From: Nitrospinota bacterium
GTDB lineage: Bacteria; 2-12-FULL-45-22; JACOWJ01
Assembly (NCBI GenBank): GCA_016176845.1
Contig: JACOWJ010000036.1
Coordinates: 1 to 38,968 of the forward strand
DNA: 38,968 nt
Reading direction: 5' to 3'
Made by a program: the position numbers and the translations under genes. Below, piece after piece: positions 9,009 to 34,948 of the stretch. Position 1 is the stretch's first letter, and the number at the start of each line of letters is the position of its first letter. A model generated the notes under the pieces. The model was given only the letters and a program-made list of their open reading frames with translations. It searched no databases and was not told where the DNA came from.

Positions 9009-9127
9009 CTCGAATCGTATAAGAATTTCCTTTTTAGACAGGATTTACGGGAAAGTTTTAAGTTTCAGGTTTTAAGTGTTAAGCAAGAGACCTAAAACTT
9101 AACACCTAAAACTTAAAACTTAGCTTG
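9009..9127 (-). repeat. 119-bp dispersed repeat, copy A (TTTTAGG hairpin + GGAAAT tail)
   Basis: On the minus strand this starts CAAGCTAAGTTTTAAG, folds through TTTTAGG/CCTAAAA arms, continues CGTAAATCCTGTCTAAAAAG and ends GGAAATTCTTATACGATTCG. It is nearly identical, about 94% by eye, to 31259-31376 on the plus strand. It fills the whole tldD-tldE gap, and its first bases supply the last two tldD codons and the TAA stop. Confidence 0.8.
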
Positions 9128-17646: not shown

Positions 17647-17747
17647 GCCTAACGTTGAAAATAACCGGCCGCCGGAGCGCGCAGCGTGGAGGAAACCCAA
17701 AAGCGCAGCTTTTGGGCGGTCCGGTTGATTGATGTGATGGGTTAGGG
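17647..17747 (-). repeat. attC-like integron recombination site 1
   Basis: On the minus strand it runs from CCCTAAC to GTTAGGC (core GTTRRRY, 17653-17647). The arms AACCGGACCGCC (17726-17715) and GGCGGCCGGTT (17673-17663) pair with a single unpaired A, the extrahelical base typical of attC bottom-strand folding. The inner hairpin is CCCAAAAGC-GCA-GCTTTTGGG (17696-17716). The stop codon of the upstream cassette gene lies inside the CCCTAAC end, as is usual for cassettes. Confidence 0.75.
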
Positions 17748-18059
17748 GGCAGCTTTGGCATTGGTTTTAAGCGCAGCATGTTCAGCCAACTCAGCTTCGA
17801 TGAAAGCGGAAATCATTGCTCGGTATACCTGTTCTGTCACCGAGAGATTTGCTCCCAACTCTTGTGACAAAGCCCTTACTTTCGAAATGACTTGTTCCAC
17901 CCGTTGAGATGCCTTCACATCGTCAATGGTTTTTTTGAACTGGGCAGCCTGTTTCACGTAACCGCCGCGCTCGGCCAGCAGCTTAACAATGAGGCGATCA
18001 ATCCGATCGATGTTTGCGCGGACTTCTTCAATCGAACTGCAGATTTCTACTGTGTTCAA
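17742..18059 (-). CDS. Chorismate mutase type II / isochorismate-pyruvate lyase-like cassette protein
   Basis: 105 residues, all-helical and of AroQ length. It begins CSSIEEVRANIDRIDRLIVK and continues ERGGYVKQAAQFKK, then RVEQVISKVRALSQELG and YRAMISAFIEAELAEH, the pattern of the CM_2 family and close to PchB-like proteins. These rearrange chorismate to prephenate, or split isochorismate to salicylate and pyruvate; the choice cannot be made here. The catalytic N-terminal Arg and the Lys of the helix-1/2 region appear present. The start is TTG at 18059 after AAAGGAG. The stop lies inside attC site 1, and attC site 2 is just upstream, so this is a gene cassette. The C-terminal KTNAKAAP is probably disordered. 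Confidence 0.8.
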   Translation of the reverse strand: MNTVEICSSIEEVRANIDRIDRLIVKLLAERGGYVKQAAQFKKTIDDVKASQRVEQVISKVRALSQELGANLSVTEQVYRAMISAFIEAELAEHAALKTNAKAAP

Positions 18060-18078
18060 AACATACTCCTTTGATGAC

Positions 18079-18140
18079 CCGCAACGGTGGCGTTCACGGG
18101 CGGCGCGCTTCGCGCCGTACCGTGCGACGCCTGGTTCGGA
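18079..18140 (-). repeat. attC-like integron recombination site 2
   Basis: On the minus strand: TCCGAAC (18140-18134), arm GGCGTCGCACGG (18131-18120), hairpin GGCGCG-CTT-CGCGCC (18102-18116), arm CCGTGAACGCC (18099-18089), GTTGCGG (18085-18079). The arms pair apart from a one-nucleotide length difference and a T/C change, again leaving an extrahelical base. The GTTRRRY core is degenerate. It follows the CcbP-like gene stop by 7 nt. Confidence 0.6.
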
Positions 18141-18147
18141 GTCCTCT

Positions 18148-18519
18148 TCAGTGATTTGCCGACCAGACGACGTACTCCCGGACTGGCCAGTAATTCGGGT
18201 TCGTCTTAGATGTGACCTCTACATCTGCAAGTGGAATGGCCCCCTTCTTCTTGCCGTCTGTGACACGGACTACCATTCCGTACTTCCAATGCTCCTCATC
18301 CAAGGACACCGCCTGCATGCGGCGACCGACAGAGAACGGGCCTCGGCCGGGATCGAATGGATTCTCCTCCATGTCTTCCTTCCGCTCGACCTCGAAAGGG
18401 AAACTCAGTTTCTCAGACAGCCATGTCATCCAGTCGCGGCGTCGCCATTCCTCGTACTTGCGGTCGAAGGCATCATCGTCATAATCGCCGTCCCACGCGC
18501 TGTCATAGTGCTCTGTCAC
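18148..18519 (-). CDS. CcbP-like calcium-binding family protein (integron cassette)
   Basis: 123 residues, acidic at the N-terminus (DGDYDDDAFDRKYEEW). Then follow WMTWLSEKLSFPFEVERKED, GMVVRVTDGKKKGAIPLADV and SKTNPNYWPVREYVVWSANH. This matches the small CcbP-type proteins first described as cyanobacterial calcium-binding proteins, which also occur in gene cassettes; function here is unproved. The longer reading frame begins at 18567, but GTG at 18519 has GAGGAG 5 nt upstream and removes 16 residues encoded by cassette leader sequence, so it is preferred. Flanked by a core site at 18588-18594 and attC site 2, it forms a complete cassette. Confidence 0.7.
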   Translation of the reverse strand: MTEHYDSAWDGDYDDDAFDRKYEEWRRRDWMTWLSEKLSFPFEVERKEDMEENPFDPGRGPFSVGRRMQAVSLDEEHWKYGMVVRVTDGKKKGAIPLADVEVTSKTNPNYWPVREYVVWSANH

Positions 18520-18587
18520 GTCTTCTCCTCTTCCGCCTCCGAACGCTTGTCTCACGAGCTGGCGCACAGAAGTTCAGAGCGCGAAGC

Positions 18588-18594
18588 GCCCAAC
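18588..18594 (-). repeat. Candidate integron core site at cassette boundary
   Basis: GTTGGGC on the minus strand fits GTTRRRY exactly. It is followed by a small GCGCTTCGCGC hairpin and then the CcbP cassette. Upstream, CAACCGC and GCGGGGTTG could pair. It may be the attI/cassette junction or the end of a decayed attC. Confidence 0.4.
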
Positions 18595-18836
18595 CCCGCT
18601 TATCGCCAGTCCCGTGGAGGCGGTTGTTCGAAGGTCATCTCTTTCTCGGTCTTGAATTCCCGTTCTCGTCTATCGTATCAAAGAAATCTGGCTTACTCGA
18701 CATACTGAGTCTGTCCCAAGTGGAAAAAACTGCGTTCCGGTTTTCGGCCAGGACCTTGTGGGAGACCTTGTATCGGGAGTCCAGGGGCCGGAACTGACTT
18801 TTTTCCTGAGCAATGGCCGTCGGAATGTTCCCTGAA
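18595..18836 (-). other. Spacer between intI relic and first cassette
   Basis: There is no complete gene. A short minus-strand frame ends EKEMTFEQPPPRDWR-stop near 18600, just before the GTTGGGC core, which looks like the tail of a decayed cassette gene. If an attI site and cassette promoter exist in this inverted layout they should lie here; none could be recognised with confidence. Confidence 0.3.
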
Positions 18837-19214
18837 CTACAACAAATCAGCCGGGCTCTGGACGCCCTTCCCTCCTCGATTCAGAACGTGTGTATAGATC
18901 ATCGTTGTGCTGACATCCTTGTGGCCCAGTAACTCCTGAACGGTACGGATATCATAGCACGCCTCAAGCAAATGCGTGGCAAAAGAATGGCGGAGGCACT
19001 CCATCAGCCGAAGCCGGGAACCGTACAGCAGATTTGCCATGATCCGGTTGGTGTCGGTTAAGCAGTTCAGTACGGCCAGGGAAGGGCTGCTCCGCTGGTA
19101 GCACCGGCCCCAAAAGCTTCCGTATACCTCAAAATAAAAAAGCCGACCCACCTTGATGTGATATTCAACGATCGCACATTCGGCAGCTCGGCTCTCTTGA
19201 TCCAGAGTCGGCAA
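18837..19214 (-). pseudogene. intI: Integron integrase intI, internally deleted relic
   Basis: The 125-codon frame carries the IntI box 1 region ([20 protein letters not shown]) joined directly to the box 2 region ([40 protein letters not shown], then [10 protein letters not shown]). About 130 residues that normally lie between them are gone, including the IntI-specific extra helix and the conserved His of HxxR. Both flanks read LR, suggesting a deletion at short homology (CTCCGC). The N-terminal ~45 residues do not match IntI, so the SAM-like domain is lost too. The box 2 His (LGHKD) and nucleophile Tyr (IYTH) survive. It is transcribed in the same direction as the cassettes, with its 3' end facing them. 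It cannot be active. Confidence 0.85.
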
Positions 19215-31116: not shown

Positions 31117-31258
31117 GGGAACAGGTTACAGGGGACAGGGAACAGGGGATCGTCAATCCTTGCCTTTGTCCTTTGCCTTTTGTCTCACGTTCATCTTCTC
31201 ATCCTGTCCATCCGGTAAATACTGTCCATCCTGTCAAAAAAGGAAATGCCTATACAAT
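31117..31258 (+). repeat. GGGAACAGG and ATCCTGTCC word repeats ending in GGAAAT tail
   Basis: 31117-31145 repeats GGGAACAGG, TTACAGGGGACAGG and GAACAGGGG. Then CCTTTGTCCTTTGCCTTTTG, then CATCCTGTCCATCCGG...CTGTCCATCCTGTC (31199-31235), then AAAAAAGGAAATGCCTATAC and AAT (31236-31258). This is yet another word family joined to the same tail, located in the xerC-hslV gap. Confidence 0.55.
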
Positions 31259-31376
31259 CAAGCTAAGTTTTAAGTTTTAGGTGTTAGGTTTTAGGTTCCT
31301 TGCTTAACACTTAAAACCTAAAACTTAAAACTTTCCTGTAAATCCTGTCTAAAAAGGAAATTTCTATACGATCGAG
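31259..31376 (+). repeat. 118-bp dispersed repeat, copy B (TTTTAGG hairpin + GGAAAT tail)
   Basis: It starts CAAGCTAAGTTTTAAG, folds as a TTTTAGG/CCTAAAA hairpin, continues TGTAAATCCTGTCTAAAAAG and ends GGAAATTTCTATACGATCG. It is nearly identical to 9009-9127 in reverse. It overlaps the 3' end of xerC: the last codons (SIV) and the TAG stop are inside the repeat. A partial tail copy lies immediately before it (31236-31258), so the hairpin is bracketed by direct repeats of the tail. Confidence 0.8.
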
Positions 31377-32473
31377 TTACGATCGGGTGTTTCCTTGGGG
31401 CCATCGATGGCTGACTGCGAATGGCCACCCGCCTCTTCCAGGGCTTCGGGCAGCGAGGTTTCCCTCATTTCCTTATCCTTACCCGCCTGCCGGGCTCGGG
31501 GATGGGCCCGGTCATACACCTCCATCAGCCGATCGGTGGTCAAGTGGGTATACTTTTGCGTCGTGGAGAGGCTGGTATGGCCCAACAGCTCCTGGATGAA
31601 GCGCAAGTCAGCCCCGGCGTCCAAAAGGTGGGTGGCGAAGGTGTGGCGCAGGGTATGGGGGCTGACGTGGCGCCTCAGCGCGCTCTTCTGCAGATACTTG
31701 ACCACCAGCAAGTGGACCCCCCGTTCCGTCAACCTCCCCCCACGCCAGTTCAGGAAGGCTGCATTCGGGTTGGCTCCGGCCTTTCCCCGGGCCAGCAACT
31801 CTCCGCGCCGTTTCAGGTAATCTCGGAGAGCCGCCGCGGCCTTTTCGCCCAAGAAAGCCAACCGCTCCTTGCCTCCCTTGCCTCGGACCTTCATGTTTTT
31901 GTTGGCCAGGTCGATCTCCTCCACGTCCAGAGAGACCAACTCCCCCACGCGGATCCCCGCGGCATAAAGCACCTCCAGGATGGCCTTGTCCCTCAAGTCC
32001 TCCGGGGTCGCCGCCTCGGGGGTCTCCAGCAGATGAAAAACCTCATCGATCGAGAGAAAGCCAGGGAGGTGCTTCTCTTGGCGGGGGGTGATCACCAGGG
32101 CGGCCTGGTTGTCATGGAGGTACCCCTCCCGCTGTAAAAACTTGAGGAACGAGCGGAGGGCCGCCAGCTTCCGTCCGATGGAGCTGTTCCGGTTTCCCCG
32201 TTGGTTTAAGGACCCCAAGAAGGCCCGGATAGCCAGCCGATTGACCCGCCGGATGTCCGCCGCCTCCCCATCCTCTTGCAGGCAGAGCTCCTTTTCGATC
32301 AGAAAAGAGCGGAATTGCTCCAGGTCGCTCAGGTAATTCCGGATCGTATGGGGCGAGCAACCCTTCTCGACCTCCAGGTGTCTCCGGAACTCCTCCAGGT
32401 AAGCGGCCCATCCCTCCGCCCGGCTGCTCCGACCCGTCGCGCTCGGGGATCCTCCTTCGTCTCTGTCCTTCAT
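31364..32473 (-). CDS. xerC: Tyrosine recombinase XerC/XerD
   Basis: 369 residues from ATG at 32473, which lies 10 nt after the topA stop. The frame is open much further upstream, but that part overlaps the topA zinc-ribbon repeats out of frame and is not coding. The N-terminal SAM-like DNA-binding domain is at about 22-125 (EFRRHLEVEKGCSPHTIRNY). The catalytic domain has Arg in AAGIRVGELVSLD, HTLRHTFATHLLDAG (HxxR), LGHTSLSTTQKYTH (His and nucleophile Tyr). It resolves chromosome dimers at dif with a partner. Both ends are longer than in E. coli XerC (about 298 residues), and the C-terminal tail ends inside a dispersed repeat. Confidence 0.9.
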   Translation of the reverse strand: MKDRDEGGSPSATGRSSRAEGWAAYLEEFRRHLEVEKGCSPHTIRNYLSDLEQFRSFLIEKELCLQEDGEAADIRRVNRLAIRAFLGSLNQRGNRNSSIGRKLAALRSFLKFLQREGYLHDNQAALVITPRQEKHLPGFLSIDEVFHLLETPEAATPEDLRDKAILEVLYAAGIRVGELVSLDVEEIDLANKNMKVRGKGGKERLAFLGEKAAAALRDYLKRRGELLARGKAGANPNAAFLNWRGGRLTERGVHLLVVKYLQKSALRRHVSPHTLRHTFATHLLDAGADLRFIQELLGHTSLSTTQKYTHLTTDRLMEVYDRAHPRARQAGKDKEMRETSLPEALEEAGGHSQSAIDGPKETPDRNSIV

Positions 32474-32483
32474 CAAACCCTGC

Positions 32484-34862
32484 CTACTTCTTGTAGATCT
32501 CCTCAGCAGCCTCCTCCTTCGCCTGGCCGTTCCCGGTGGCCGCGAGCTTGCGGGTGCTCTTGCAGCGGGGGTAGCCCGAGCAGGCCAGGAACTTTCCGTA
32601 ACGTCCCGGCTTGATGAGCATGGGGGAGCCGCACTTCTCGCAGACCTCCTCGGTGGCCTCCTCCTGCCCCTGGCTATTCCCTGCGGGAGCGAGCTTGCGG
32701 GTGCTCTTGCAGCGGGGGTAGCCCGAGCAGGCCAGGAACTTGCCATAGCGTCCCGGCTTGATGAGCATGGGGGAGCCGCAATTCTCGCAGACCTCCTCGG
32801 TGGCCTCTTCCTGGCCCTGGCTGTTTCCCGCGGGAGCGAGCTTGCGGGTGCTCTTGCAGCGGGGGTAGCCCGAGCAGGCCAGGAACTTGCCGTAACGCCC
32901 CTGCTTGATGAGCATGGGGGAGCCGCATTTCTCGCAGACCTCGTCGGTGGTCTCCTCGTTCTTGATGGCCCGAATGGTCCCCTCCTCATCCCGGGTGAAC
33001 TCGGCCGTGTTCTTGCACTCGGGATAGCCGGGACATCCCAGGAAATAGCCCTTGCGGCCCCACTTGATGACCATCTGGCGGCCGCACTTCTCGCAAGGGA
33101 TGTCGGTGGGGACCTCTTTTCCCTTCACCCGGGTCATCTCCTTTTGGGCCCGCTCGAGGGTCTGGACGAAGGAGCCGTAAAACTGCGCCAGCGTCTCTGC
33201 CCAGCGGGCCTTGCCCTCCTCGATCTCGTCCAGCTGGTTCTCCATGTTGGCGGTGAACTCCACGTTCAAGATCTCGGGGAAATGGCCGGTCAGCAGGTCG
33301 TTCACCAACAGGCCCAGCTCCGTGGGGGAGAGCTTGCGCTTCTCCTCTCGCACGTAGTCCCGCTCCTTGATGGTGCTGACGATGGAAGCGTAAGTGCTGG
33401 GCCGCCCGATCCCCTTCTCCTCCAGCTCCTTGACCAGCGTGGCCTCCGAATAGCGAGGAGGGGGCTGCGTGAAGTGCTGCCGCGGGACGATCTCCCGAAC
33501 CTTCAGGGCCTCCCCGACCTGTAAGGGCGGCAGGGGCTCCACCTTCTCCCGGTCCAGGAGGTTCTCCTCAGCAACCTCGTCGGCCGGCTCGTCCCGGGCC
33601 TCGACGTAAACCTGCATAAAACCCGAGAATTTGATGACCGCCCCGGTGGCCCGGAAGGTATAACGGCCCGCCGCGATATCGACGGTGGTCATGTCGTAGA
33701 CGGCTGGGGTCATCTGGCTGGCCAAAAACCTTTGCCAGATCAGCTGGTAGAGGGCGAGCTCCTCCTTGCCCAGATAGGGCCGGAGCCGTTCCGGTTCCCA
33801 ACGAACCGAGGTGGGGCGGATCGCCTCGTGGGCCTCCTGGGCCGCAGCTCGTCCTTTGTAGATCGGGGGTTTGGCCGGCAGGTAGTCGGGGCCAAACTTC
33901 TCCCGGATGTACTCCCGGGCCTGCTCCTGGGCCTGGGGAGCGATCCGTGGGGAGTCGGTCCGCATATAGGTAATGAGGCCGACCGGCCCCTCCTGCCCGA
34001 TATCGATCCCCTCGTAGAGCCGCTGGGCGATGAGCATGGTCCGCTTCGGGGAGAATTGGAAGCGGCGGGCGGCCTCCTGCTGGAGTTGGCTGGTGATGAA
34101 GGGGGCGGCGGTAGAACGTTTCCGCTCCTTCTTTTCCACCTTGGCCACCACAAAGGGCGCCCCTTTGGCCTCCTCGACGATCGAGAGGGCCGTCTGCTCG
34201 TCCTTCACCTCCTCCTTCTTCCCATTGATTTTGGCCAGCCGGGCACTGAAAAGCGGAGGGAGGCGCCCTTCCAGGCCCGCCGTGATCGACCAGTACTCCC
34301 GGGGGACGAAGGCCTGGACCTCCCGCTCCCGCTCGCAGATCAGCCGCAGGGCTACCGACTGCACCCGGCCGGCGCTCAGGCCGTAGTTGACCTTCTCCCA
34401 GAGGAGGGGGCTGATCTGGTAACCCACCAGCCGGTCCAGGATCCTGCGGGCCTGTTGAGCATCGACCTTGTTCCGGTCGATCTTGCCCGGGTGCTGCATC
34501 GCCTCTCGGATCCCCGGCTCGGTGATCTCGTTGAAGAGGACACGATAGATGTCCCTTTCCTGAACCCCTTTGAGCTCCTGCGAGATGTGCCAGGCGATCG
34601 CCTCCCCCTCCCGGTCCGGATCGGGGGCCAGGTAGATCCGGTCGGCCTTGCTGGCCGCTTCCCTGAGCTCTTGCAAGATCTTCCCCTTGCCGCGGATGGT
34701 GATATATTCGGGCTCGAAGCCATTCTCGATCTTGACTCCCAGTTTCTTTTTGGGGAGGTCCTTGACGTGCCCCACTGAAGCCTTGACCTCGTAATCCTTG
34801 CCGAGGTACTTCTTGATGGTCCTCGCCTTGGTTGGCGATTCGACGATTACCAGAGATTTCAC
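32484..34862 (-). CDS. topA: DNA topoisomerase I with four zinc ribbons
   Basis: 792 residues. The Toprim domain is at 1-115 (KSLVIVESPTKARTIKKYLG; DPDREGEAIAWHI). The type IA core carries the nucleophile Tyr in GLITYMRTDSPRI near 300. Four C4 zinc ribbons are at the C-terminus: CEKCGRQMVIKWGRKGYFLG first, then three almost identical CExCGSPMLIKxGRYGKFLA units. It relaxes negative supercoils. The start is taken as GTG at 34862, preceded by GAGAAGG at 8 nt; the TTG at 34880 is part of the ribosome-binding region. It follows dprA and precedes xerC by 10 nt, so it is probably co-transcribed with both. Confidence 0.95.
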   Translation of the reverse strand: MKSLVIVESPTKARTIKKYLGKDYEVKASVGHVKDLPKKKLGVKIENGFEPEYITIRGKGKILQELREAASKADRIYLAPDPDREGEAIAWHISQELKGVQERDIYRVLFNEITEPGIREAMQHPGKIDRNKVDAQQARRILDRLVGYQISPLLWEKVNYGLSAGRVQSVALRLICEREREVQAFVPREYWSITAGLEGRLPPLFSARLAKINGKKEEVKDEQTALSIVEEAKGAPFVVAKVEKKERKRSTAAPFITSQLQQEAARRFQFSPKRTMLIAQRLYEGIDIGQEGPVGLITYMRTDSPRIAPQAQEQAREYIREKFGPDYLPAKPPIYKGRAAAQEAHEAIRPTSVRWEPERLRPYLGKEELALYQLIWQRFLASQMTPAVYDMTTVDIAAGRYTFRATGAVIKFSGFMQVYVEARDEPADEVAEENLLDREKVEPLPPLQVGEALKVREIVPRQHFTQPPPRYSEATLVKELEEKGIGRPSTYASIVSTIKERDYVREEKRKLSPTELGLLVNDLLTGHFPEILNVEFTANMENQLDEIEEGKARWAETLAQFYGSFVQTLERAQKEMTRVKGKEVPTDIPCEKCGRQMVIKWGRKGYFLGCPGYPECKNTAEFTRDEEGTIRAIKNEETTDEVCEKCGSPMLIKQGRYGKFLACSGYPRCKSTRKLAPAGNSQGQEEATEEVCENCGSPMLIKPGRYGKFLACSGYPRCKSTRKLAPAGNSQGQEEATEEVCEKCGSPMLIKPGRYGKFLACSGYPRCKSTRKLAATGNGQAKEEAAEEIYKK
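32637..32930 (-). repeat. 147-bp tandem repeats encoding topA zinc ribbons 2-4
   Basis: CTCGCAGACCTC on the plus strand recurs at 32637, 32784 and 32931, exactly 147 bp apart. Each unit encodes a 49-residue zinc ribbon plus a GQEEATEEV-type linker (APAGNSQGQ). The high DNA identity, including third positions, indicates recent duplication or gene conversion. Confidence 0.8.
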
Positions 34863-34875
34863 CGTTGGATACCTT

Positions 34876-34948
34876 CTCAAGTTAGGGATTAGGGGTTAGG
34901 GACTAGCGAAGAAGAACTTTTGCTAGCCCCTAGCCCCTAGTCCCTCAA
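34876..34948 (+). repeat. TTAGGGATTAGGGG hairpin with conserved loop (copy 4)
   Basis: CTCAAGTTAGGGATTAGGGG and TTAGGGACTAG form the left arm. GAAGAAGAACTTTTGCTA is the loop, and CCCCTAGCCCCTAGTCCCT the right arm. It fills the dprA-topA gap, and its CTCAA end overlaps the topA ribosome-binding region. No GGAAAT tail follows. Confidence 0.65.

Follow-up and report, generated by a model that had tools for sequence, protein, structure and literature searches.

A decayed chromosomal integron behind aspB in a Nitrospinota bacterium, with a c-di-GMP-I riboswitch-like leader before its integrase relic

The locus immediately downstream of the aspartate aminotransferase gene aspB in this genome is a decayed chromosomal integron, that is, a CALIN with an intI pseudogene. 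We consider it quite probable that a small sedentary chromosomal integron was inserted here and has since died, leaving between aspB and the integrase relic a leader that joins a match to the c-di-GMP-I aptamer with a terminator. The window referred to below is the whole stretch of 38,968 nucleotides that was analysed; the host genome assembly comprises 1.53 Mb in 61 contigs and is 68% complete, such that other integron parts may be missing from it. While a dead integron with cassettes facing the 3' end of intI is an informative yet ordinary relic, the riboswitch-like leader matters more.

The components of the locus all lie on the minus strand. The chromosomal flank is formed by aspB (20505-19312), and the order aspB-coaD is common to the host and to G001, a genome of the same order and the sole relative for comparison. 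No integron was found downstream of aspB in G001, and thus the insert is absent from that relative. GC content across the insert (0.42-0.59) is lower than in the flanking genes (0.58-0.63). Reading from aspB, the leader (19286-19136) is followed by the intI relic (19076-18837), a 22-aa ORF (18703-18635), attC 1 (18632-18538), the gene for a CcbP-like calcium-binding protein (18519-18148), attC 2 (18140-18080), a chorismate mutase/isochorismate lyase-like gene (18059-17742) and a near-canonical attC 3 (17747-17647). The 22-aa ORF, which ends 2 bp ahead of attC 1 and has no match in Pfam, is a probable eroded cassette. An AT-rich stretch separates attC 3 from a methyltransferase gene on the same strand (17184-15832), which may be a fourth cassette lacking an attC or a chromosomal gene; the covariance model search of the window found no attC behind it. 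After the methyltransferase gene lies a MITE-like element of ~120 bp with inverted ends (TGTCTGAACGAAAAC...GTTTTCGTTCAGACA; 15803-15680).

The identification of a relic integron with an IntI fragment, proposed in an earlier note, is borne out by profile and phylogeny. The C-terminus of an ORF at 19214-18837 (minus strand) matches TIGR02249 (E 9e-31, profile positions 264-314), and in the tree the relic groups (support 97) with an intact IntI encoded on contig C26 of the same genome, which itself reaches 506 bits against a TIGR02249 cut-off of 265 and keeps the residues conserved in six IntI. Profile match and grouping together rule out a XerC or phage origin. The relic consists of a 28-aa piece (19073-18990) fused to the C-terminal ~50 aa (18994-18837), and the two pieces are 94% identical in protein to the C26 IntI. 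By BLASTN the relic matches the C26 locus in three collinear blocks, namely the leader (19217-19075, 84.7% identity), 19073-18990 (92.9%) and 18994-18834 (90.1%). The gaps between these blocks relative to C26 (~384 and ~379 bp, together ~760 bp) represent two deletions, the second of which lies at the junction of two places sharing TCCGC. With the N-terminus and the IntI-specific region gone, as well as the centre, no working recombinase is possible, and the two deletions leave the locus short of a functional integron. Further IntI fragments of the host genome lie on contigs C19 and C23. A 175-bp segment upstream of the intact intI (L001 1093-1267) recurs in inverted orientation on C23 (L011 119-293), where it follows directly on the stop codon of a different IntI fragment, and its presence at both integrase loci may reflect past rearrangement between them.

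A hand-written attC finder, based on the palindrome and boxes, failed to tell real sites from shuffled DNA; it served only to gather training sites in obvious arrays, and a covariance model (R1), built from 43 attC in arrays beside the IntI of other genomes, took over. On 80 foreign IntI loci this model gave 170 matches with the strand consistent within each locus, which indicates that it reads attC polarity correctly; its E-values are rough, owing to a shortened model calibration. Within the window the model places three attC in 1.1 kb, all on the minus strand, at 27.3 (attC 1), 21.8 (attC 2) and 49.1 bits (attC 3, matched over 17742-17647). The two attC-like sites of the earlier note, attC 2 and attC 3, are thus real and of the polarity it had given them, while a third, between the relic and the first gene, had been missed. 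In the whole genome (1.53 Mb) there are six matches at E<=10, three of them at this locus; C4 and C16 have one site each, and the last match is at noise level. That half of the genome-wide matches fall within 1.1 kb on one strand is more than chance. The two single sites elsewhere in the genome (L108 6004-6075 and L109 6214-6285) score 29.0 and 25.5 bits, and are the only ones above 25 bits outside this locus.

The weakest of the three, attC 2, has a genome-wide E of 0.1 taken alone, and we accept it because it stands directly after a stop codon and between two better sites. The chorismate mutase gene ends within attC 3, its stop codon being contained in the R'' box. Compared with shuffles, the bottom-strand folds of attC 2 and attC 3 are more stable (z -2.2 and -2.15), and that of attC 1 is no better (z -0.7). 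An attC of one polarity follows each cassette gene, as in an integron. Between the relic and the first attC we found no GTTRRRY box with flanking repeats that would mark an attI, nor a cassette promoter; attI is poorly conserved. The TATACGGAA motif, which recurs in the attI-like regions of some relatives, also occurs within the leader (19126), though this position does not suit an attI.

Both short genes recognized earlier have Pfam matches above the cut-offs, the first to CcbP (29.8 bits, cut-off 21.5) and the second to CM_2 (65.9 bits, cut-off 27). Their frames are intact and each has a ribosome-binding site, with a GTG start after GAGGAG in the CcbP-like gene and a TTG start after AGGAG in the chorismate mutase-like gene, in agreement with the initial impression of intact cassettes beside a dead integrase. 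The genes could be expressed from upstream transcription passing the leader. The cassettes would be frozen in cis, while excision in trans by the intact integrase of C26, by way of the good attC 3, could still occur. Searches for a plasmid relative of the CcbP-like gene found none; a plasmid homologue of the chorismate mutase gene (60% identity) proved not to be a cassette.

At gathering scores Rfam returned nothing in the whole window. When the leader was scanned with relaxed thresholds, c-di-GMP-I (GEMM-I) riboswitches unexpectedly matched at 19286-19178 (minus strand), a match that begins 26 bp past the stop codon of aspB. For both RF01051 (32.0 bits, E 1.2e-4, cut-off 35) and RF03167 (33.9 bits, E 2.1e-6, cut-off 59) this is the single match in the whole genome. 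Because both scores are below the curated cut-offs, we scored the two halves of the aptamer separately against 127 kb of the same genome, using a profile of 20 other GEMM aptamers from which the window was excluded. It is possible that the match is a decayed or fortuitous likeness without regulatory meaning for integrons, and the scores below the Rfam cut-offs are in keeping with this. Against it, the 5' half reaches 25.7 bits exactly at the leader, where the next best of 253,180 positions on both strands scores 3.8 bits, and the three best positions for the 3' half are the three leaders of this genome (22.0, 20.9 and 20.2 bits; next 15.2). The aligned leader also keeps the ligand contacts G20, A47 and the CC holding C92 (Vc2 numbering as assigned in this analysis; the contacts are discussed in PMC9049102), and its G21-C46 pair has become C-G through a change of both bases, an exchange also seen in L131 and L141, two aptamers that score above the cut-off. 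The GUAA loop of P2, of GNRA type, is kept, and in P3 the two outer pairs are broken and there is a large insert.

The aptamer overlaps a terminator-like hairpin (19194-19136, minus strand; -23.3 kcal/mol, z -3.6) that leads into a stretch of six T. The hairpin's 5' arm, AGCCGA, belongs to the 3' strand of the aptamer, such that the two structures are mutually exclusive in the manner of an expression platform. For such an overlap the usual arrangement is that the folded aptamer prevents termination, and an ON switch is thus predicted. An overlapping hairpin of this kind in all three leader copies, including the homologues at C26 and C19, again argues against a fortuitous likeness. The host genome encodes four GGDEF proteins, making c-di-GMP plausible as a messenger.

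The three riboswitch-plus-terminator leaders lie at 19286-19136 of the window (minus strand), at L001 1242-1385 and at L010 976-1103 (minus strand). Two are directly before IntI genes and one is beside an oppositely directed intI relic (C19). The full aptamer is kept only in the window copy, and the best-preserved aptamer thus precedes a dead integrase. The C26 leader, before the intact intI, retains the 3' half and the terminator and has lost the 5' half (13.9 bits), with G20 and the G21-C46 pair changed, while the C19 copy has parts of the aptamer only. The loss before the intact gene speaks for a likeness without regulatory meaning, as does the lack of any GEMM match near the 80 other intI genes. 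The 5' half of the C26 aptamer might be read instead as a promoter (TTGACA-17-TAATCT), which is possible but below the scan threshold.

An integrase under c-di-GMP control was probably ancestral, and this control would now be decaying in all three copies. Ancestrally, binding of c-di-GMP would have blocked terminator formation and turned the integrase on. More specifically, and tentatively, it is quite possible that the integrase of this lineage was or is under a c-di-GMP-I riboswitch with a terminator platform, linking cassette capture to the messenger of the sessile/motile transition instead of, or besides, SOS, and that here the better-preserved switch could govern the captured genes directly. 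Any present-day effect of the leader would fall on the cassettes, which the deletions have brought to within ~0.6 kb of it. DNA exchange is common in biofilms, and a c-di-GMP switch on intI would, if true, tie gene capture to biofilm life. Integrase expression is governed by LexA and a few global regulators (PMC3108266, PMC8876359); the leader would likewise control integrase expression, but as a predicted RNA switch responding to a second messenger, whereas LexA represses by binding DNA. We found no report of a riboswitch on intI in the searchable literature, and the earlier claims of integron riboswitches concerned aminoglycoside cassettes and have since been rebutted (PMC9410878, PMC8876359). 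The leader shares with the RF01051/RF03167 riboswitches the aptamer core, the type of P2 loop, the ligand-contact bases and the overlapping terminator, and differs from them in standing before an integron integrase, in its score below the Rfam cut-offs and in the size of its P3 insert.

The earlier note had also stated that the 3' end of intI faces the array, and had read this as an inverted integrase of the Treponema kind, a layout reported for few lineages. As local geometry the statement is true, since the 3' end of the relic does face co-oriented cassettes. The supposed rarity does not hold: the inverted layout was observed in seven of the 80 IntI loci, from Omnitrophota, Planctomycetota, Acidobacteria, Chlorobiaceae and Thermoanaerobaculia, and is thus not confined to few lineages. 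In L035, L044, L059, L067 and L082 the attC are found 3' of intI, while L037 and L052 are inverted by virtue of an attI-like region ending in GTTRRRY ~200 bp after intI. A 3'-side attI-like region with this ending is common to the inverted integrons L035, L044, L052 and L037, which come from several phyla; those of L035 and L044 contain TATACAG/CTGTATA repeats, and similar TATACGGAA repeats occur upstream of intI in the standard-layout cyanobacterial loci L061, L066 and L095.

We regard it as unlikely that the locus is a native inverted integron, whose IntI lineage always had its attI and cassettes on the 3' side as in Treponema. The local geometry with its three co-oriented attC would fit such an origin, and a position of the C26 protein beside the inverted clade is acceptable in an AU test on the quick tree (p 0.54), but in the careful tree of 86 IntI that protein joins L028 from Calditrichia and L029 from Desulfobacteraceae with support 98/85, separate from the inverted clade of 12 rows (100/97). 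Both L028 and L029 have the standard divergent layout, their attC being located upstream of intI and on the other strand, with 5 kb between array and intI in L028. Careful tree and AU test taken together, the phylogeny is evidence against a native inverted origin but no proof. Further against it, neither this locus nor C26 shows a 3'-side attI as in L035, L044, L052 and L037, and no attC was found 3' of the intact C26 intI as far as the contig end, or on either side of it above 10 bits in the surrounding 3.6 kb. As neither an attI nor a cassette promoter was recognized at the locus, its original layout is not proven.

Evidence in the other direction comes from G001. Its IntI loci L020 and L021 are in standard layout, and it also contains an intI relic with a central deletion (aa ~140-284; L023 8131-13000, G001:C136) that has three attC and intact cassettes on its 3' side and a GTTAGAC boundary ~130 bp past the stop codon. 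Thus 3'-facing remnants recur, and 3'-facing layouts may be native in this order. Judged by sequence reading, the L023 cassettes include genes for a putative ParA-like ATPase and a putative restriction-endonuclease-like protein. The Treponema-type inverted or 'reverse' integrons (PMC3607928; L035, L044, L052, L059, L082) resemble our locus in that intI is transcribed toward the cassettes, but the careful tree does not include the IntI here in their clade, and their 3'-side attI has no recognized counterpart. With the sedentary chromosomal integron remnants or CALINs of Treponema phagedenis (PMC3607928) the locus shares attC and cassette genes that outlast the integrase, and differs in that part of intI and the leader still stand beside the array.

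Under the preferred reading of a sedentary integron that died in place, IntI lost its N-terminal part and centre by the two deletions, while the two cassette genes and three attC persist in one orientation; since the nearest relatives keep their cassettes on the 5' side, we infer that a rearrangement or off-site insertion placed those of this locus secondarily 3' of intI. There is no support for the array having been inserted into a flank of the C26 type, since beyond the last attC the C26 flanking sequence is not resumed. A chance neighbourhood, in which an unrelated attC cluster (CALIN) came to lie beside an intI relic through rearrangement, is improbable: the DNA identity with C26 does end six bases past the intI stop codon, marking a breakpoint, and the first attC lies ~200 bp beyond it, but all elements are on one strand within 1.6 kb in a genome with so few other attC.

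Two other features of the window were noted. A large tandem repeat at 32486-32957 has the look of an ordinary repeat and belongs to the 3' part of a topA-like gene (31364-34880); this gene has 147-bp tandem repeats toward its 3' end, is followed by a xerC-like integrase and looks ordinary as well. Near-palindromic repeats, 65-125 bp long and sharing up to 93% identity, occur at 2254-2319, 9009-9127 and 31257-31380 of the window and on contig C23.
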